Part shown: positions 8,067-56,729 of the stretch, piece after piece
How positions within the stretch are numbered: position 1 is the first letter of the stretch
How the letters are laid out: the number at the start of each line of letters is the position of its first letter
From: Psychroserpens damuponensis
Lineage (GTDB): Bacteria > Bacteroidota > Bacteroidia > Flavobacteriales > Flavobacteriaceae
Length of the DNA stretch: 64,000 bases
Direction of reading: 5' to 3'
Assembly (NCBI RefSeq): GCF_000826655.1
Contig: NZ_JXJO01000018.1
Location: 1-64,000, forward strand
Translations under genes and position numbers: made by a program
Notes under the pieces: generated by a model
Told to the model about the DNA's origin: nothing
Databases searched by the model: none
Seen by the model: the letters and a program-made list of their open reading frames with translations, nothing else

Positions 8067-11000
8067 CTAGTTATAATTCATCTCTTCTTTTGCTTTCATC
8101 ATTTCATTAAATTCTGCTTTAGAACCTACGATGATGTTGTCAAATTTTCTAACACCTGTTCCTGCTGGGATTCTATGACCAACAATTACATTTTCTTTCA
8201 ATCCTTCAAGATCATCAATCTTACCATTTACAGCTGCTTCGTTTAGAACTTTAGTTGTTTCCTGGAACGATGCTGCCGAGATGAATGACTTCGTTTGTAA
8301 CGATGCTCTTGTAATACCTTGTAAAATTGGAGTTGCAGTTGCTGGTTGTGCATCACGTGCAGTTACCAATGCTTTATCCTCTCTACGAAGTATAGAATTC
8401 TCATCTCTTAATTCTCTAGACGTTAATACTTGACCAAGTTTTAACGTTTGAGAATCACCTAAATCTTCTACAACTTTCAATCCGAAAATTTTATCATTTT
8501 CTTCAATGAAATCTGCTTTATGAACCAATTGATCTTCTAAGAAAATAGTATCACCAGAATCAATGATTCTAACTTTACGCATCATCTGTCTCACAACAAC
8601 CTCAAAATGCTTATCGTTAATCTTCACACCTTGTAAACGATATACTTCTTGTACTTCATTTACTAAATATTGTTGAACAGCGGCTGGGCCTTTAATATTC
8701 AAAATATCATTTGGTGTAATCGAACCATCAGATAAAGGCATACAAGCTTTAACGTAATCATTTTCTTGTACAAGAATTTGATTAGATAATTTCACTAAGT
8801 ATTTCTTAACCTCACCAAGCTTAGACTCAATGATAATCTCACGGTTACCTCTTTTAATTTTTCCGAAGGACACAACACCATCAATCGCACTTACAACAGC
8901 AGGATTAGAAGGGTTACGTGCTTCAAATAATTCTGTTACACGAGGTAAACCACCAGTAATATCACCAGCTTTAGAAGATTTACGTGGGATTTTAACTAAA
9001 ATTTTACCAATTTTAATCTTCTCACCATCATCAATCATAATGTGTGCACCTACTGGTAAGTTATAAGAACGAATTGCTTCACCTTTACCATCTTCAACAA
9101 TAAGAGTAGGAATTAATTTCTTGTTTCTAGACTCAGAGATTACTTTCTCTTGGAATCCTGTTTGTTCATCAATTTCTACTTGGTATGTTACACCTTGTTC
9201 GATGTTTTCATATCTTACTTTACCAGCAAACTCTGAAATAATTACACCGTTATATGGATCCCATTCACAAATTACAGTACCTGTTTTCACTTTATCACCT
9301 GGTTGAACATAGATGAAAGATCCATAAGGAATATTATTTGTACTTAATGTGATACCAGTTTTAGCATCTACTAATTTTAATTCAGAAGTTCTAGATATAA
9401 CAACATCTACATCATTACCTTCTTTATCAGTACTCTTAACGGTTTTAAGATCTTCGATCTCAGCGATACCATCAAATTTAACTGTTAATTTATTTTCTTC
9501 GGAAATGTTACCTGCAACACCACCTACGTGGAATGTACGAAGTGTAAGCTGAGTACCAGGTTCTCCAATTGATTGTGCAGCAACTACACCAACGGCTTCA
9601 CCTCTTTGTACCATTTTACCAGTCGCTAAATTACGACCGTAACATTTAGAACAAATACCTTTTTTAGCCTCACAAGTTAATGCAGAACGTACTTCTACCG
9701 CATCTAAAGGTGATGCTTGAATACGTTTAGCAATATCATCATCAATATGACCACCTGCTTCAACTAATAACTCTTCAGTAATAGGATCATAAACATCATT
9801 TAATGATGTACGACCAACTATTCTAGCCTCAAGAGTTTCTATAATTTCTTCATTTTTCTTTAATGGTTGAACTTCAATACCTCTTAAAGTACCACAATCT
9901 TCAGTATAGATAATAACATCTTGAGATACATCAACTAAACGACGAGTTAAGTAACCTGCATCGGCAGTTTTAAGTGCTGTATCGGCAAGACCTTTACGTG
10001 CACCGTGAGTAGAGATAAAGTAATCTAAAATTGAAAGACCTTCCTTAAAGTTAGAAAGAATTGGGTTTTCAATAATTTCACCACCTCCTGCGTTAGATTT
10101 TTTAGGTTTTGCCATTAATCCACGCATACCTGTTAACTGACGAATCTGTTCTTTAGATCCACGAGCTCCAGAATCAAGCATCATAAACACCGAGTTGAAT
10201 CCTTGTTGGTCTTCACGAATACGCTTCATTGATAATTCTGTCAATTCAGCATTTGTAGACGTCCAGATATCAATTACTTGGTTATAACGTTCGTTATTAG
10301 TAATTAAACCCATGTTATAATTACCCATAATACCATCAACTAAGCCATTAGCTTTATCAATCATACCTTGTTTTTCGGCAGGAATAATAATATCACCTAA
10401 ACTAAATGATAATCCTCCTTGGAATGCGAATTTATATCCTTGAGTTTTAATCTCATCTAAGAAAGAAGCTGTTTCTGGTACACTTGTCTTTTTAAGAATA
10501 CCATGAATAATGTCTCTTAATGATTTTTTTGTTAATACTTCATTAATATAACCTGCAGCAGCTGGTACTTTTTCGTTGAAAAGAACACGACCTACAGTAG
10601 TTTCTATAATTTGCGTAGTTAACTCACCTTCTTCATTAAAATCTTGAGTTCTTACTTTAATACCAGCATTTAATTCTACTTTCTTCTCGTTGTAAGCAAT
10701 TGTTACTTCTTTTGGAGAATAGAATGTTAAGCCTTCACCTTTAACCGTATAATTTTCATCAGTTTTTCTTAGCTTGGTCATATAATATAGACCAAGTACC
10801 ATATCCTGTGAAGGTACTGTTACTGGAGCACCATTTGCTGGATTTAAGATATTGTGAGATGCCAACATTAATAATTGACATTCTAAGATAGCTTCTGGTC
10901 CAAGTGGCAAGTGAACTGCCATTTGATCACCATCAAAATCGGCATTAAATGCAGTACACACTAATGGGTGTAACTGAATTGCTTTTCCTTCAATTAATTT

Positions 11001-12368
11001 TGGTTGGAAAGCTTGAATACCTAGTCTGTGTAATGTAGGAGCACGGTTAAGTAATACAGGATGTCCTTTAAGAACATTCTCTAAGATATCCCAAACAACA
11101 GGCTCTTTTCTATCTATAATTTTCTTTGCAGATTTTACAGTTTTTACAATTCCTCTTTCAATTAGTTTTCTAATGATAAAAGGTTTGTATAATTCTGCTG
11201 CCATATCTTTTGGCAATCCACATTCATATAATTTTAATTCTGGTCCAACAACAATTACAGAACGTGCAGAATAATCAACACGCTTACCAAGTAAGTTTTG
11301 ACGAAAACGTCCTTGCTTACCTTTAAGTGAATCTGATAATGATTTTAATGGTCTATTAGAATCTGTTTTTACTGCAGATGCTTTACGTGTGTTATCAAAG
11401 AGTGAATCTACAGATTCTTGTAACATACGCTTTTCATTACGTAAAATAACTTCTGGCGCTTTGATTTCAACTAAACGCTTTAAACGGTTATTACGAATAA
11501 TAACACGACGATATAAATCATTTAAATCTGAAGTTGCAAAACGGCCACCATCTAAGGGCACTAAAGGTCTTAATTCTGGCGGAATGATTGGAATAGCCTT
11601 CATGATCATCCATTCTGGTCTATTCTCTCTATTTTTATTAGAATCTCTAAACGCTTCAACAACTTGTAAACGTTTTAAGGCTTCAGTTTTACGTTGTTTA
11701 GACGTTTCTGTATTTGCTTTGTGACGTAATTCAAATGATAAATCATCTAAATCAATTCTTGCTAACAAATCAATTAAACATTCAGCTCCCATTTTAGCTA
11801 TAAACTTATTAGGATCAGAATCATCTAAATGTCTGTTTTCTTGTGGAAGACTTTCCATAATGTTTAGATACTCCTCTTCTGTTAAGAAATCGAGTTTCTG
11901 TAATGGATCACCTTCAACATTTTTAGCTAAACCTGGCTGAATTACCACGTAGCGTTCGTAATAGATAATCATATCTAAACGCTTAGAAGGTAAACCAAGT
12001 AAGTAACCAATTTTATTTGGTAACGAACGGAAATACCAGATATGAGCTACTGGCACAACAAGGTTGATGTGTCCTACTCTATCACGACGTACTTTCTTTT
12101 CTGTTACTTCAACACCACAACGATCACAAACAATACCTTTATAACGTATTCTTTTATATTTACCACAAGCACATTCAAAATCCTTTACAGGACCAAAGAT
12201 ACGCTCACAAAATAAACCATCACGTTCTGGTTTATGTGTTCGATAATTAATAGTTTCTGGTTTTAAAACTTCACCACGAGATGCTCCTAAAACAGATTCT
12301 GGTGATGCTAAACCAATAGAAATTTTATTAAATTTCTGTATTGTATTCTTGTCTTGTCTTCTTGCCAT
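8067..12368 (-). CDS. rpoC: DNA-directed RNA polymerase beta' subunit
   Basis: This is the largest polymerase subunit, 1433 residues, the usual size in Bacteroidota. The N-terminal zinc site CACGKYK...CDRCG lies near residues 66-87. The invariant catalytic [12 protein letters not shown] motif, which holds the active-site Mg, is near residue 475. A second Cys cluster ([15 protein letters not shown]) and the trigger-loop region follow. The start sits 122 bp after rpoB in the same transcript. That gap holds a 5-bp CACGA/TCGTG dyad (12419-12439) and one copy of the TTCCGAAG octamer. No broken motif was seen. Confidence 0.98.
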
Positions 12369-30711: not shown

Positions 30712-30939
30712 TTACAAATCAAATACCGAAGAGCGTTTTGTATAAACAATATCTTTTATTTTAATCCAGAAAGCGAAAAACAAATACAATGCAAATCCAA
30801 AACCTAATGTAGCAAAGGTAAGATACATAAATGAGGTTCTTACAATTTTTGCTCTAATCCCAATACGATCTGCAATACGCTGACATACGTAAAACCCACG
30901 TTTTTGAAAATAGTATAGCATTTGGTAAAATCTATTCAT
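30712..30939 (-). CDS. PspC domain protein
   Basis: This 75-residue protein has the PspC fold: an amphipathic N-terminal part (GFYVCQRIADRIGIRAKIVRT) and one transmembrane helix (about 37-58, MYLTFATLGFGFALYLFFAFW). PspC proteins respond to membrane stress in other bacteria; here it has no PspA/B partners. It sits between DUF2851 and the K+ channel genes on the same strand, 53 bp and 3 bp away. Confidence 0.82.
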   Translation of the reverse strand: MNRFYQMLYYFQKRGFYVCQRIADRIGIRAKIVRTSFMYLTFATLGFGFALYLFFAFWIKIKDIVYTKRSSVFDL

Positions 30940-40369: not shown

Positions 40370-40825
40370 ATGAGACGAGCCATTTTTCCAGGATCATTTG
40401 ATCCCATCACTTTAGGACATTATGATATTATAAAGCGTGGTATAAAACTTTTTGACGAAGTAATCATTGCCATTGGTATTAATGCCGAAAAAAAATACAT
40501 GTTCTCTTTAGAGCAACGTAAACAATACATTGAAGATGCTTTTATAAATGAGCCTAAAATAAAAGTTGTAACCTATAAAGGTTTAACTATTGATTTTTGT
40601 AAAGAAATTGATGCTAATTTTATACTTAGAGGGTTAAGAAATCCAGCCGATTTTGAATTTGAAAAAGCTATTGCTCATACCAATAGAAAATTATCAAAAA
40701 TTGAAACTGTATTTTTATTAACAGCTGCTAAAACGTCTTTCATTTCATCATCTATTGTTAGAGATGTCATTAGAAATGATGGTGACTATACGGTTTTAGT
40801 ACCAGATAGTGTACGCGTTAAATAA
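40370..40825 (+). CDS. coaD: Phosphopantetheine adenylyltransferase
   Basis: CoaD (151 residues) joins ATP and 4'-phosphopantetheine to dephospho-CoA in coenzyme A synthesis. The nucleotidyltransferase signature GSFDPITLGHYDIIKRG holds the (T/H)xGH motif, and RGLRNPADFEFE and the C-terminal TSFISSSIVRD are typical. Its last 8 bases overlap the end of the convergent response-regulator gene. Confidence 0.95.
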   Translation: MRRAIFPGSFDPITLGHYDIIKRGIKLFDEVIIAIGINAEKKYMFSLEQRKQYIEDAFINEPKIKVVTYKGLTIDFCKEIDANFILRGLRNPADFEFEKAIAHTNRKLSKIETVFLLTAAKTSFISSSIVRDVIRNDGDYTVLVPDSVRVK

Positions 40826-41468
40826 GATTATTGCGCTTTGCTTTTTGCACAGCCTCTAACTTATTATGTACTTGAAGTTTTCTATAGATGTTTTCAATAT
40901 GTTTTCTAACGGTTCCTTTAGAAACGATTAGGTTTTCTGCAATTTGAACATAATTAAGTCCCTTACTTAAATGTTCTAAAACTTCGGTTTCTCTATTGGT
41001 TAATTTAATGTCTTCTTTATCTTTTGCATTTTCTATGCTTAATGGGTTACGAAGTAATTTTAACGTTTTAAGTGCTATTGAAGGGTTCATTGCTGCACCA
41101 CCATTTAAGGTTTCTATGATACCGTCATGCAAATCTTTGGCATTAATTTCTTTTAACAAATAACCATCTGCTCCTGCTTTAATCGCATTAAAAATGTTTT
41201 CATCATTATCAAAAACGGTTAACATAATGATTTTTATATGCGGATATTTCTGTTTAATAATAGCTGTAGTTTCAATACCATTGAGAACTGGCATTTCTAT
41301 ATCCATTAAAATCAAATCTATATTATGATTGTTTTCAATTTGTGATAACAAATCTGATCCATTTACAGCTGTAAACTTAATTGCAAAATCATCAAAAAAT
41401 GACAACTTCTCTTTGACAGTATGTATTAAAAATGAATTGTCGTCAACTATAACTATTTTGATTGGCAT
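40818..41468 (-). CDS. LuxR/NarL-type response regulator
   Basis: This 216-residue regulator has a receiver domain with D9/D10 and phospho-acceptor D56 (LILMDIEMPVLNG) and a C-terminal LuxR helix-turn-helix (LTNRETEVLEHLSKGLNYVQ, from about 149, then KGTVRKHIENIYRKL). It is the partner of the TPR histidine kinase just upstream, with a 68-bp gap. That gap holds a dyad ATACG-N8-CGTAT and a possible promoter, suggesting separate, self-controlled expression. The gene end overlaps coaD by 8 bp. Confidence 0.93.
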   Translation of the reverse strand: MPIKIVIVDDNSFLIHTVKEKLSFFDDFAIKFTAVNGSDLLSQIENNHNIDLILMDIEMPVLNGIETTAIIKQKYPHIKIIMLTVFDNDENIFNAIKAGADGYLLKEINAKDLHDGIIETLNGGAAMNPSIALKTLKLLRNPLSIENAKDKEDIKLTNRETEVLEHLSKGLNYVQIAENLIVSKGTVRKHIENIYRKLQVHNKLEAVQKAKRNNLI

Positions 41469-41487: not shown

Positions 41488-41495
41488 TAAAGGTA
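41488..41495 (-). promoter_or_regulatory. Putative -7 element of the response-regulator gene
   Basis: TACCTTTA on the minus strand matches TAnnTTTG at 7 of 8 positions counted with the free ones. It lies 22 bp downstream of the dyad at 41518-41535 and predicts a short leader of about 14 nt. Confidence 0.4.
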
Positions 41496-41517
41496 TTTGA
41501 TTTAAAATGTGTTTTCT

Positions 41518-41535
41518 ATACGCTATATGTCGTAT
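41518..41535. promoter_or_regulatory. Candidate response-regulator operator (site 1)
   Basis: ATACG-CTATATGT-CGTAT is an 18-bp dyad with 14 symmetric positions. It contains TAC-N10-GTA, the outer geometry of NarL-type 7-2-7 sites. It lies between the kinase stop and the regulator start. The same dyad occurs at 46282-46299. Confidence 0.5.
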
Positions 41536-41536
41536 T

Positions 41537-43486
41537 TTACAAATGATTAATACTTAAAACAACGTGTGTGCCTTTATTTATTTTTGAAGACACATTAATT
41601 TCTGCAGTGATATCATGAGCTCTTTTAGTCATATTATTAATACCATTACCCATTGCTGTGTTTTGCATATCAAAACCTTTACCATCATCGGTGATTTTAA
41701 ATATAAGTGTATTGTTTTCTGTAGAAAAATCAACTGAAATATGTTTTGCTTCGGAATATTTTAAAGCATTATTAATACTTTCCTGAATGATCCGATAGAT
41801 GTTCATGCCTTCAACAGACGAGAACATGTGATCTCCAATTTCCGAAGTATTTGAATTAAAAATAAACGTAACACCATCTGAAGCTAAATCTGCTTTATCG
41901 ATAAAATTTGAAATTCTAGATTGTAAATCTTCTAGAGATATTTTGGTTTTATTCATTGCCCAAATGGTATCTCGCAACTCATAAATTGTGGCTGTAGTGA
42001 ACTCGCTAATGGTTTCTAATTTACTAGTTAATTTTTTATCCTTGATATCAAAACCGTATTTGAGATTGTCAATTGATGAAATTATAAATGTAAGTTGAGC
42101 GCCAATATTATCGTGTAAATCTCGAGAAATTCTTAAGCGTTGTTCTTGTAATATATTTTGAGTTTCAATTTTAAGCAATGCATCTTTAAGTTCGTTTTCT
42201 TTATGTAATTGACGGTTTTTTAACTTTTGTTGGTTATAAAATAAAAACCCAATAAGTCCTAAAATAAGTGTCACACCTATTAAACCATAAATTTGATAAT
42301 CTCGTTGTTGGATGGTTAGTTTATGCTCTGCCAACTCTGCACGTTGCACCAGTATTTCTTTTTCCTTTTTTTGTGTTTCATATTTCACTTCTATGGCTGC
42401 AATAGCTTTAGCATTTTTTTCAGAAAAAATAGAATCTTTAAGTGTTATGTATTGCGCTTTATTTAGTCTTGCTTTGTTAAAATCACCAAGCATATAATAA
42501 CTTTCGGCTGCTGTTAAATGTAAATCTGCCGACATTTGTTGAATTTCAGGAAACTTCTTAACTAGCTCAAATCCCTTTTTAGCATAAATTAGCGCAACTT
42601 CAGGATTCTCTTTTTCATTATATAGGGATGCAATATTATTATATGAGGAGAGTTGACTTTTTTCTTCGGCATCATAATCGTCTGGTTTATCTAACGCTTT
42701 TAAGTAGGTTTTAAGTGCTAAATCTATATTCCCATTTTCATTATAGGCATTGGCTAAGTTGTCTAGTAATTTGTAGTATTCTATTAAATTATTTTTACGA
42801 TTGGCTAAATCAATTCCTCTTATATAAAATGATATGGCTTCATCGATTCTACCTAAATCTTTGAGATTGATTCCTATATTATTTAATGAGGCAACTTGAG
42901 CATTTTCTAGATTATATTTCTCTCTTACTTTTAAGGCTTTATAGTGGTAATCGAGTGCCTTTTCTGAAAGGTTCATTTCTTGGTAAATAAGTCCAATATT
43001 ATTTAAGGATGATCCTGTTGATTTCTCATCATTTAAACTTTCATTCATTTTTAAAGACTGAAAAAAATAGTCTAAAGCCTTATCATAATTGCCACGATTC
43101 CAATTAAACATTCCCAGGTTATTAACGCACATAGATTCAATTTGCGGAAATTCAAATTCTCGACTCATTTTAAGTGCTTTTTCAAAGTAAAATCCAGCAG
43201 AATCAGATTTCCCTGTTACATCCATGTAAATACCATGGGTATTTGTAAGCTCAGTTAAGCCGTAATTAAATTCCGCTTTTTTGGCTAATGCCTTGCCTTC
43301 TTGAATAACTTGTATTGCTTTTTTAGTATCATTAAAAATATAACTAAACCCAATTTTATTATAGAGTCTCAGTTTAGCAGAATCATTTTTAATGGCTTTT
43401 GCAGCAGCATATAAACTATCTAGATTTTGTGCAAATCCAAATGAAGATATAAAACACAGTAATAGGATAAAGAATTGTTTTTTCAT
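41537..43486 (-). CDS. TPR-containing sensor histidine kinase (HisKA_3)
   Basis: This 649-residue sensor has a signal peptide (cleavage near FAQ, residue 20), about six to seven TPR repeats outside (75-350) and a coiled-coil stretch (350-395). One transmembrane helix (399-417) follows, then a HisKA_3 dimerisation helix with H458 (RISRDLHDNIGAQ) and a HATPase domain (about 560-645, DDGKGFDMQN). It is the NarL-type partner of the regulator encoded next. The signal sensed by the TPR region is unknown. No TAnnTTTG element was found directly upstream. Confidence 0.92.
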   Translation of the reverse strand: MKKQFFILLLCFISSFGFAQNLDSLYAAAKAIKNDSAKLRLYNKIGFSYIFNDTKKAIQVIQEGKALAKKAEFNYGLTELTNTHGIYMDVTGKSDSAGFYFEKALKMSREFEFPQIESMCVNNLGMFNWNRGNYDKALDYFFQSLKMNESLNDEKSTGSSLNNIGLIYQEMNLSEKALDYHYKALKVREKYNLENAQVASLNNIGINLKDLGRIDEAISFYIRGIDLANRKNNLIEYYKLLDNLANAYNENGNIDLALKTYLKALDKPDDYDAEEKSQLSSYNNIASLYNEKENPEVALIYAKKGFELVKKFPEIQQMSADLHLTAAESYYMLGDFNKARLNKAQYITLKDSIFSEKNAKAIAAIEVKYETQKKEKEILVQRAELAEHKLTIQQRDYQIYGLIGVTLILGLIGFLFYNQQKLKNRQLHKENELKDALLKIETQNILQEQRLRISRDLHDNIGAQLTFIISSIDNLKYGFDIKDKKLTSKLETISEFTTATIYELRDTIWAMNKTKISLEDLQSRISNFIDKADLASDGVTFIFNSNTSEIGDHMFSSVEGMNIYRIIQESINNALKYSEAKHISVDFSTENNTLIFKITDDGKGFDMQNTAMGNGINNMTKRAHDITAEINVSSKINKGTHVVLSINHL

Positions 43487-43796
43487 TTGTAATTAATTAA
43501 TAGCACTATCAAGATACTATATTTTTAAACTAAATGGAATTCTATTAAGTATTGGAGATGGAAAGATGAGATCAATCACAAATTTTTAATCTCACAATAA
43601 GACAAAAAAAAAGCATCAGATTTAACAGGCCTTTTGGGGACTTTAAATTAACTGACGCTTAATAAAATTGATTAATAGCAAGACGAATATATAACTAATT
43701 ATCAGTTGAATAGGTTTTTTTCGATAAGGTGCAATTAAAAAAGATTAAGCGTAATTCGTTAAAAATCACGCCCAATCATAATCTCAACAACAAGAT
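43487..43796. other. Intergenic region with terminator
   Basis: This 310-bp AT-rich stretch lies between the beta-propeller stop and the kinase start. It holds a terminator hairpin (43604-43659) and otherwise no coding frame, RNA gene or copy of the ATACG dyad. Confidence 0.7.
43604..43659 (-). terminator. Terminator of the beta-propeller operon
   Basis: AGCGTCAG (minus, 43659-43652) pairs with CTGATGCT (43619-43612) with one G-T pair. An inner CC/GG hairpin sits in the loop and nine T follow. It is the 3' end of the lipoprotein/propeller transcript. Confidence 0.65.
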
Positions 43797-45674
43797 TTAT
43801 TTATTTAGATTATATGCATAAATCGTTTTATCATTGACTTTATAATACAAATAACCTCCAAATTCATCTACTTGATATTCTGGTTTTTTATCTTTTAGAA
43901 TGATTTCTTTTTCTATTGCACCAGAATCCTTATTTACTTTTACTAAACCAACACCATCTTGTAATTTAGTTAATATAAACTGAGAATTTTGAGTCGCAGC
44001 AGTGGCTTTAAAACGCTTGAGCATTTCGGCAACCGAAGCTCCAGAAGCTGCAGCCATACCATCTCCTAAATTTGCATAACGTTGACCTGTAGACGTGTAA
44101 TTACCAAGTACATTTCTATTATCATTAGCAACAGCATAAGAACTCGTTGCGGCTGCTGCTGTTGCTACGGCTGTGACTCCTGCTAATATAGCTCCAAAGG
44201 CACTTTTTCCTGGCGCTCTGTGATATTCATGCCACACTTTATCTCCTTTAAAATCTAACATCATTAAATTTTGATCGGAAGTTAAAAGAATACCGCCTGC
44301 TCTCACTTCTACCAAAGTAGGATCTTCTTTACCTTCAAAATCTGACTCTGCTAACAATGTTGATTCACCCGAATCTGCATTAATCGCATATAGTTTGTCA
44401 TCAGCACTTATTAGATAGTTATTATTAGTTTTATCTAAATCTGAACTCACCACATCTGCTCGTTTAAATTTCATGGCTTTTTTCCAAATTTGATCTCCAG
44501 TATCAAGGTTTACAATATTAGCATCTTCCGAAGTAATATAAAGTAGTCCTTGAGGCGTGTGAGCCATGGTTAAAATGTTCTCTCCTGTTTTTAGAGGCTT
44601 TTTAAAGAGTGTGTGTCCTTCATAAGAAATCTTATTGATTCCTCCCTCTTTAATTCCGAAGAGAATACCATCATCCATAATATAAAAGTGTTGCACATAG
44701 CCTTTCGTTTTAGGTGCCTTATCCCAAAGATCTTCACCATTTGAAGCACTAAACATCGTTATTTTAGATTCTGAAGCTGCTCCAAATGTTTTACCACTAC
44801 CAGCAACATCACTAACAACAGCTAAGCCTTGCGGCAAAATTTGAAAATTTGAAACGCTTCCTTTTACTTTACGTTCATCGTCCCACGCTTCGCTACCATT
44901 TGAATTGATTTTATAGATTCTTGTATTTTTACCATTAGATGTTGCTGAAAACGCATAAATATCACTTTCTTGATCATTACTAGTCATCCAGTTAACATTC
45001 TTTACTTTATTATCCCATAATGTTTCTCCTGTTTTAGATTTCGCAATAATACCTTGACTTGTTGGCACTAATAACTGATCTTTTAATAATAAAGGTGTTC
45101 CTGTTATTGCATAATTTTTCATAGTCACTTTACCAGGTGTCATCAAAAAAAATGCGTAATCCTCTTCGCCTGTATTTAAATCATAAACGGCAACTTTGGG
45201 AGTTACACTTTCATGTTTTGCACCTCCTTTTTGAAAACCGCTTACCACCAATTTATTTTGTGGCATCATCACTGTACAAACTGATACACTTTTCCAACCT
45301 TTAGACTCGGTGGTAAATAATATTTTTCCAGACATATAATCAATTACAGCTTTTTTAGAACTAATAGCTGCAAACCCTGTTTGATCAACAATAACATATG
45401 GTGCTTTTGGCACATAAGTGATTTCTTCTGGTTTTACTCGACCGTAATCTGTGAAATTAAATAGTAATTGATCTTCACCTGGTTTTATACCAACTAATCC
45501 ATCATTAGTTGCCACGACCACAGTTCCTCCTTCTGTGATAGTCATTTCGTTTATCTTGGCTCCAAGCTCATAATTATGATCTGGAGTTTCTGCTTTTTGA
45601 GCATTTAGTGTAGTTGCACTCATTACAAATGCAACTATCACTAAGCTCTTTAACTGAATTAATAGCTTTTTCAT
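43797..45674 (-). CDS. Exported PQQ-like beta-propeller protein
   Basis: This 625-residue protein has a signal peptide (cleavage near LNAQ, residue 25). A series of WD/PQQ-type propeller blades follows (repeats such as GETLWDNKV, GEDLWDKAPK, GDQIWKKAM). An Ala/Gly-rich insert around 495-515 (FGAILAGVTAVATAAAATS) interrupts the propeller. No PQQ-enzyme metal residues are obvious, so it may be a binding or scaffold protein rather than a dehydrogenase. It follows the DUF6252-like lipoprotein by 10 bp. The promoter before that gene carries the dyad shared with the response-regulator gene. Confidence 0.78.
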   Translation of the reverse strand: MKKLLIQLKSLVIVAFVMSATTLNAQKAETPDHNYELGAKINEMTITEGGTVVVATNDGLVGIKPGEDQLLFNFTDYGRVKPEEITYVPKAPYVIVDQTGFAAISSKKAVIDYMSGKILFTTESKGWKSVSVCTVMMPQNKLVVSGFQKGGAKHESVTPKVAVYDLNTGEEDYAFFLMTPGKVTMKNYAITGTPLLLKDQLLVPTSQGIIAKSKTGETLWDNKVKNVNWMTSNDQESDIYAFSATSNGKNTRIYKINSNGSEAWDDERKVKGSVSNFQILPQGLAVVSDVAGSGKTFGAASESKITMFSASNGEDLWDKAPKTKGYVQHFYIMDDGILFGIKEGGINKISYEGHTLFKKPLKTGENILTMAHTPQGLLYITSEDANIVNLDTGDQIWKKAMKFKRADVVSSDLDKTNNNYLISADDKLYAINADSGESTLLAESDFEGKEDPTLVEVRAGGILLTSDQNLMMLDFKGDKVWHEYHRAPGKSAFGAILAGVTAVATAAAATSSYAVANDNRNVLGNYTSTGQRYANLGDGMAAASGASVAEMLKRFKATAATQNSQFILTKLQDGVGLVKVNKDSGAIEKEIILKDKKPEYQVDEFGGYLYYKVNDKTIYAYNLNK

Positions 45675-45684
45675 ATGTCGCTTT

Positions 45685-46221
45685 TTAGTTTACAACTTGC
45701 TTGTTTAAATTAAAAGAGCCTTCTGTAATTGTTTTGATTGATTGATCTCCACCTACATTTTTACATGTAAAATTGAATGTCCCTATGACTTTAGAATCTG
45801 TTTCTTCAGAAATATTTAATTCTCCAACCATGGTATCGTCATAAGGCGCTTGCCAAATTTCAGTAGTTGAGTTTTGAGGGTTGTTTAAATCGACATCAGT
45901 TTCGGTATATGATCCTACGTTTGCGATATTTGCGCCTCCTCCAAAAGGATATGCACCCACACCATCATAGCCAAAAATGCTAATAGAAAATGCATTGCCA
46001 TCACTGTTTGATGCAATAATTATTAAATTTTGTCCAGAATTTGCCACTGTAGCCGATGATGAAATTTCCATAGATTGATATGACGCTCCATCAACTTTTG
46101 CTGTTAATGCTCCAGATGGTGCACTTCCTGGTGCTCCTCCATCATCGTCACTAGAACACGACGTTAAACTTAGTAATGTGCCTACCATTACAAATAACAT
46201 AAATTGCTTAAAACTTCTCAT
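45685..46221 (-). CDS. DUF6252-like lipoprotein
   Basis: This 178-residue lipoprotein has the signal MRSFKQFMLFVMVGTLLSLT followed by SCSSDDDGG, with lipid Cys22 and an Asp-rich sorting stretch common for surface lipoproteins in this phylum. The rest is a beta-rich domain (SISIFGYDG, IGTFNFTCKN, ITEGSFNL) resembling DUF6252. It lies 10 bp before the beta-propeller gene and is the first gene of that operon. Possible control by the neighbouring two-component system is suggested by the upstream dyad. Confidence 0.72.
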   Translation of the reverse strand: MRSFKQFMLFVMVGTLLSLTSCSSDDDGGAPGSAPSGALTAKVDGASYQSMEISSSATVANSGQNLIIIASNSDGNAFSISIFGYDGVGAYPFGGGANIANVGSYTETDVDLNNPQNSTTEIWQAPYDDTMVGELNISEETDSKVIGTFNFTCKNVGGDQSIKTITEGSFNLNKQVVN

Positions 46222-46251
46222 TGTTGAATAATTTTGTGATTAATAATGAGA

Positions 46252-46282
46252 CAAAGTTGCGATATATCACAAGGCAAGACAA
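46252..46282 (-). promoter_or_regulatory. Putative promoter of the lipoprotein/propeller operon
   Basis: TTG (46282-46280), a 20-bp spacer and CAACTTTG (46259-46252), a near match to TAnnTTTG. The start would be near 46246. The dyad 46282-46299 touches the -33 element. Confidence 0.45.
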
Positions 46283-46299
46283 TACGACATATGACGTAT
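46282..46299. promoter_or_regulatory. Candidate response-regulator operator (site 2)
   Basis: ATACG-ACATATGA-CGTAT has 16 of 18 symmetric positions and TAC-N10-GTA geometry. Its centre is about 44 bp upstream of the expected transcription start, a position used by activators that touch polymerase. It shares the outer half-sites with 41518-41535. Confidence 0.5.
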
Positions 46300-56630: not shown

Positions 56631-56729
56631 GTGATTGGCTGATTGATTGATGGTTAACTTGTATATCTACAAAAACGAATATACTTTAGTTTTCGTATGA
56701 AATTTCTTAAAATTTTTATAAAACTTGAT

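Follow-up and report, generated by a model that had tools for sequence, protein, structure and literature searches.

Among described two-component systems, the closest to the one considered here is NarX/NarL of Escherichia coli, which shares with it the family of the response regulator and an operator built of inverted 7-bp halves 2 bp apart (a 7-2-7 site). Outer TAC...GTA bases form the NarL consensus, in which the half-site reads TACYYMT. A single 7-2-7 site located just upstream of a promoter element can suffice for NarL, as in the case of the ogt derivatives, where it is found at -44.5 (available portion of PMC7419079). A distant parallel from within the Bacteroidota is FimS/FimR of Porphyromonas gingivalis, which likewise has a TPR-type periplasmic sensor kinase, paired with an activating response regulator that binds its target promoters; the available portions of PMC1974823 and PMC11053733, from which this description is taken, contain no FimR operator motif. 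In the partly covered literature that was searched, no operator is defined for the LuxR-type response regulators of the Bacteroidota, though the genomes of this phylum hold many candidates. Here we describe a 64-kb stretch of the Psychroserpens damuponensis genome (the window) in which two exact copies of the dyad ATACG-N8-CGTAT precede the first and the last of four minus-strand genes, which encode, from first to last, a lipoprotein-like protein matching DUF6252, a BamB-like propeller protein, a sensor histidine kinase of the TPR type and a response regulator of the NarL/LuxR type. To judge from sequence comparison, the dyads are very probably the operators of this adjacent response regulator, which would activate both its own gene and the exported-protein operon.

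The regulator-operator pair represents a variation on a known type. The half-site here is TACGnCA instead of the NarL consensus, and the promoter is of the Bacteroidota -7/-33 type. The response regulator scores 127.7 bits against the NarL equivalog cut-off of 250 bits, and its partner sensor is a TPR kinase. This kinase combines TPR sensor and histidine kinase domains in the layout of FimS/FimR systems but is only weakly FimS-like (82.7 bits, far under the cut-off of 600), and FimR controls fimbriae. Within the literature searched, the novelty appears to lie in the rule of exact spacing across the phylum and in a sister motif linked to candidate small RNAs. The searches returned no recognizable description of the operon, the dyad or the sister motif, which is weak evidence given that most subscription journals lay outside their coverage; the available portion of PMC10197871 deals with other regulators.

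Two dyads at a fixed distance from -7 elements

The exact dyad is found at 41518-41535 and 46282-46299, and these are the sole exact copies in the window, as the first-pass annotation of this DNA had stated. Its estimate of about 0.07 copies expected by chance at roughly one third GC was also reproduced (0.067 copies at 32.8% GC). Two or more exact dyads were present in none of 300 dinucleotide shuffles of the window, and at least one in 10. When two mismatches are allowed, the window contains 30 matches against 18.9 expected, a count reached by 3 of 100 shuffles; with so small an excess, the exact dyad alone is meaningful. Such a pair of exact copies within 64 kb is improbable but could still arise by chance, and the claim therefore needed testing in other genomes.

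Both sites are read on the minus strand. The site at 46282..46299, which reads ATACGTCATATGTCGTAT on that strand, precedes the lipoprotein gene and is followed by a predicted -33 element TTG (46280..46282), which shares the last base of the dyad, and by the -7 element CAACTTTG (46252..46259). The site at 41518..41535 reads ATACGACATATAGCGTAT and is followed by AG in place of TG and by the -7 element TACCTTTA (41488..41495). The gap between dyad and -7 element is exactly 22 bp in both cases, confirming the earlier observation of equal spacing at two promoters of the same direction. The 41518 site had been described simply as lying before the response regulator gene; it does lie between the kinase stop codon, beyond which it starts by one base, and the start of that gene, but it is internal to the operon.

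The -7 box of the Bacteroidota occupies positions -12 to -5 (available portion of PMC9723704), and both predicted operators therefore span -52 to -35, with the centre at -43.5 and adjoining the -33 element. Transcription would on this count start at about 46247 ahead of the lipoprotein gene and at about 41483 ahead of the response regulator gene. Both sites have the 7-2-7 architecture, with inverted 7-bp halves, a 2-bp gap and outer TAC...GTA, the one on the response regulator side with two inner deviations. Once one site is reversed, 16 of the 18 bases agree, and the inner 8-mers are similar too. The likeness to NarL-type TAC-N10-GTA sites that the first-pass annotation had pointed to holds both in geometry (7-2-7) and in position (about -43.5).

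Conservation of the dyad and of its spacing

Ninety-seven genomes, including that of P. damuponensis, were surveyed for orthologs of the kinase and the response regulator (E 1e-60 or better). The kinase is found in 26 of them, and the response regulator in the same 26. The operon region was taken from all 25 relatives harboring both, as a first set of 20 and a second set of 5. The order alaS - GSCFA - lipoprotein - propeller - kinase(s) - response regulator is widely retained, with losses, and some relatives have no propeller or lipoprotein match. According to the first-pass annotation, absence of the dyad from before the orthologous operons of close relatives would refute the candidate regulon. 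No such absence was observed in the first set: upstream of the lipoprotein gene, 18 of the 20 relatives have an exact dyad and two have one that keeps 9 of 10 arm bases; upstream of the response regulator gene, 16 have an exact dyad, two keep 9 and one keeps 8 of the 10 arm bases, and one has no dyad. The bases flanking the dyad diverge between relatives, while the dyad is retained at both promoters. Its commonest form is ATACGnCA-ww-TGnCGTAT, that is, two inverted 7-bp halves 2 bp apart; the dyads of some other orthologs carry less symmetric cores, for example TACGTAATTCnTCGTA. Among the five relatives of the second set, the dyad precedes the lipoprotein gene in one (G050), the propeller gene in two (G056 and G034) and the response regulator gene in two (G050 and G087). 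Neither dyad was found in G095, where little DNA upstream of the kinase is covered.

A further scan, whose search pattern prescribed the arms (unlike the comparison of 20 relatives), covered 220 bp upstream of 41 response regulator genes and 30 regions downstream of GSCFA, with our window and further genomes included. The dyad was found in 25 of the 30 GSCFA-downstream regions, most often before the lipoprotein gene and in some cases before the propeller gene or another gene, and upstream of 24 of the 41 response regulator genes, so feedback at the response regulator promoter is not universal. All 25 of the GSCFA-side sites have a full match to the -7 form [TC]AnnTTT[GA] at exactly 22 bp, a form picked after viewing the two -7 elements of the window. 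In 24 of the 25, TG directly follows the dyad, yielding TTG at -33. The -7 box starts with CA instead of TA in 24 of the 25, which fits a promoter that needs activation. A fixed position abutting the promoter, as in class II-like activation, is thus found at 22 bp, and is looser on the response regulator side.

The same spacing recurs in loci chosen by protein and not by motif. Around relatives of the response regulator from named genomes, we examined the best 80 of 576 candidate loci, several of them from genomes already in the earlier comparison. The exact dyad occurs 82 times here, in 51 of the loci, and the reversed pattern not once. At 22 bp there are 48 full -7 matches, compared to an average of 0.6 and never more than 3 at the other offsets from 5 to 42, and to 10 of 3200 at random positions. 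Counted by dyad, 47 of the 82, spread over 38 loci, show a full match at this distance, and the loci with 22-bp sites include some from Pelobium and Taibaiella and from one bacterium each of the Saprospiraceae and the Prolixibacteraceae. Among the 150 matches listed by a search that covered 395 genomes of the order and made no use of the response regulator, 32 are at 22 bp and 14 at 21 bp, and no other offset has more than 9. The 21-bp peak looks to be mostly one conserved coding gene. Nine of 16 genomes from this order-wide list have a relative of the response regulator (63-80% identical) within ~8 kb of the dyad, and seven do not.

Presence of the motif also follows that of the response regulator. 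The form TACGnCAwwTGnCGTA is found in 19 of the 26 genomes with the response regulator and in 3 of the 71 without it (p=1e-11), while the reversed pattern is found in 4 of 97. Within the genus, 15 of 16 members with the response regulator have the motif, as compared to 0 of 7 without; in these seven the propeller match is absent (six genomes) or reduced to a stretch of 48 amino acids (one genome). The candidate regulon of the first-pass annotation is well supported by this comparison, in that dyad, 22-bp spacing and response regulator co-occur in the genus and well beyond it. The exported-protein operon it called neighboring is, however, part of the same gene block, and the control proposed here is autoregulation of one module rather than of an unrelated neighbor, because the kinase-response regulator pair and the exported-protein genes form one conserved block.

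Proposed regulation and alternative explanations

We infer binding by the response regulator, activation, its dependence on phosphorylation, and the signal as follows. The TPR kinase would sense an envelope signal, as its TPR region and the two exported partners suggest, and phosphorylate the response regulator. A dimer of the latter would bind ATACGnCA-ww-TGnCGTAT with one subunit on each 7-bp half, centered near -43.5 and abutting -33, and would contact RNA polymerase on a sub-standard sigma-A promoter, producing class II-like activation. The promoters so activated would be that of the lipoprotein-propeller-kinase-response regulator operon and an internal one for the response regulator, forming a positive feedback loop that would also raise the two exported proteins. 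It is possible that these proteins act as accessory sensors. Such a module offers a concrete, testable regulon for an uncharacterized and widely conserved TPR kinase/LuxR pair with two exported partners. The motif and its exact spacing allow direct target prediction, and the spacing rule could guide the building of inducible promoters in marine flavobacteria.

Several observations weigh against this proposal. A site abutting -33 could also repress. On the response regulator side, a -7 box (at least 5 of 6 bases) stands at 22 bp in 14 of 23 cases and at 21 bp in the other 9. No dyad is found within 220 bp upstream of 17 of the 41 response regulator genes, 29 of the 80 loci have no exact dyad, 35 of the 82 dyads lack a full -7 match 22 bp away, and the full CAwwTG core is present in only 16 of 33 distinct sites. 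The three genomes with the motif but no close response regulator ortholog are G042, where the copy lies inside an open reading frame, and G070 and G081, where the copies are promoter-like and 22 bp from a -7-like box. Finally, the motif used for the association was derived from the same operons, and shared ancestry inflates the p-values; consequently, the association mainly shows that genomes lacking the response regulator lack the motif, which is not a general promoter element.

The alternative that survives best, though we consider it unlikely, is that the response regulator acts at the dyads as a repressor, with its dimer obstructing polymerase at -33 in a negative autoregulation. Autorepression is common among regulators, and the dyad does touch the -33 TTG. 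However, the site stops at -35 and does not cover -33 to -7, the GSCFA-side spacing is fixed to the base pair as for a polymerase contact, and the -7 boxes are sub-standard; moreover, NarL activates from its 7-2-7 site at -44.5 (PMC7419079, available portion). Activation by the response regulator is preferred to a second alternative as well, which we rate as less probable still, namely that the dyads are bound by another LuxR-type regulator, possibly a paralog. The same genome encodes a second LuxR-type regulator next to dyads that share the outer bases and the 22-bp spacing (see below), and G070 and G081 carry the motif without a response regulator match at E 1e-60. Yet it is the CAwwTG core that tracks the response regulator of the window among the members of the genus, whereas the AGnnCT core is found in 21 of 23 members, those without this response regulator included, and G070 has a response regulator 45% identical to that of the window.

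Activation through operators in the DNA can also be set against the proposal that the inverted repeat is an RNA hairpin, such as a terminator after the kinase gene, next to whose stop codon one window copy starts. This is highly improbable: in both cases the predicted transcription start is downstream of the dyad, the same element also precedes the lipoprotein gene, and pairing between positions 6 and 13 is seen in 4 of 16 distinct CAwwTG sites against a shuffled mean of 4.9. Hairpin pairing was rejected on the ground that it is no more frequent than in shuffled sites. As for a chance resemblance of the two sites, two copies where ~0.07 are expected in the window are by themselves suggestive and not conclusive, but chance is refuted by the conservation and spacing in other genomes and retains a negligible probability.

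Sister motif, other sites and operon genes

A sister motif, ATACGTAG-nn-CTACGTAT, occurs as tandem dyads, the majority of them 22 bp ahead of a -7-like box, and is followed by candidate small RNAs of ~70 nt (contig C2 of P. damuponensis and L310-L329). On C2 (L001:1180-1810), two exact dyads ATACGTAGAACTACGTAT are situated downstream of the second LuxR-type regulator gene, which occupies L001:556-1191; they too stand 22 bp ahead of a -7-like box and have terminator-like hairpins after them. The pattern ATACGTAGnnCTACGTAT with a downstream TTTG is found in 22 of the 97 genomes, among them 21 of the 23 genus members, and its reversed control in none. An ortholog of the second LuxR-type regulator is found in 20 of these 21 genus loci. 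By pattern search, the first candidate RNA (~70 nt, GCTATTAATCAATTT...) was recognized in 19 of the 21 and the second in 13. The 3' hairpin of the first candidate comprises 13 pairs, of which 4 have changes on both sides among the 19 sequences. The loci are accordingly predicted, from sequence, to encode tandem small RNAs. In the 6 loci (of 21) that were scanned against Rfam, no family matched over the candidates, and four weak matches elsewhere in those loci fell below the gathering score.

We lean towards the broader reading that the Bacteroidota share a NarL-type response regulator grammar, in which an ATACG...CGTAT 7-2-7 dyad would stand exactly 22 bp before the -7 element (centre about -43.5), and the inner bases (CAwwTG, AGnnCT, TATAAATA and others) would separate paralogs. 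One paralog of the genus would then drive tandem structured small RNAs, in a logic resembling that of GacA-Rsm but with unrelated parts. If true, the regulons of many orphan LuxR-type two-component systems would be readable from sequence. In two genomes from the order-wide search, G246 and G121, a further inner variant ATACGTATAAATACGTAT and near forms occur at several sites per genome, and sites of this type stand 22 bp before a TAnnTTTG box in 7 of 10 matches listed in G246 and 4 of 10 in G121. They possibly belong to a third regulator with the same grammar.

The P. damuponensis genome (3.95 Mb) contains six exact dyads: the two of the window, two on C2, one on C35, and one inside an open reading frame on C77. 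When the -7 box is included in the pattern, only the two window sites are matched at 0 or 1 mismatch. With up to 3 mismatches, 18 and 19 matches were obtained against 12 and 22 for the reversed control; since the two are about equally frequent, no further target in this genome is claimed. The window also holds two copies of the dyad with a single mismatch, neither of which was counted: that at 56681 precedes an outer-membrane beta-barrel gene and has no -7 box at 22 bp, and that at 30875 was judged by reading alone. On the minus strand of C35 (L005:880-1660), the dyad ATACGTAGTCTTACGTAT lies upstream of a gene for a small predicted secreted peptide, the transcript of which would start with nearly the same TTGCTATTAATCAATTT as the candidate small RNA.

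In relatives, the 22-bp sites other than those of the operon and the response regulator gene largely precede genes whose products start like exported proteins. An exact CAwwTG dyad is also found upstream of xerD in 10 relatives (L075, L078-L081, L087, L088, L093-L095), in nine of which it is flanked on one side by xerD and on the other by a gene whose product resembles outer-membrane proteins; the contig of the tenth is too short to show this. On the xerD side, a -7-like box stands at a loose offset of ~20-22, and xerD of P. damuponensis has a different neighbor and no dyad in the 320 bp inspected. The xerD gene was not adopted as a target of the response regulator.

The four operon genes are all on the minus strand. 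The first (45685..46221) encodes the lipoprotein-like protein of 178 amino acids (DUF6252, PF19765, E 8.8e-10); its predicted structure has a mean pLDDT of 84, and a fold search with this model found nothing similar in the PDB at E 0.001 or better. The second (43797..45674) encodes the propeller protein of 625 amino acids, predicted from its N-terminal sequence to be exported. This protein matches PQQ_2 (PF13360, E 2.8e-17), a family described as BamB-like, but it scores under the BamB equivalog cut-off (37.1 of 285.2 bits) and, unlike BamB, is encoded in a signaling operon. The third gene (41537..43486) encodes the kinase, which has 649 amino acids and the domains TPR_12, HisKA_3 and HATPase_c. 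Many relatives (L053, L057-L065, L068) have two tandem paralogous TPR kinases ahead of a single response regulator, where the window has one. In L057 (~10750-11100) the propeller gene is matched only in short pieces, as if decayed, with the dyad, lipoprotein, kinase and response regulator genes still present beside it.

The fourth gene (40818..41468) encodes the response regulator, the predicted dyad-binding protein, of 216 amino acids. It consists of receiver (PF00072, E 1.3e-24) and GerE/LuxR helix-turn-helix (PF00196, E 2e-16) domains, as is characteristic of the NarL/FixJ family. The phosphorylation residues D56, T84 and K106 are invariant in 12 orthologs, and the second helix of the helix-turn-helix is mostly so (DNA-binding helix T[VI]RKH[IV]ENIYxKLQV). 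The closest solved structures include VraR and NarL, with VraR the best match in sequence; regulators of the VraR/LiaR type belong to Gram-positive cell-wall systems and differ in operator and accessory proteins. The response regulator gene overlaps, tail to tail and by 8 bp (40818-40825), an opposite-strand gene at 40370-40825, which we take to be coaD-like.

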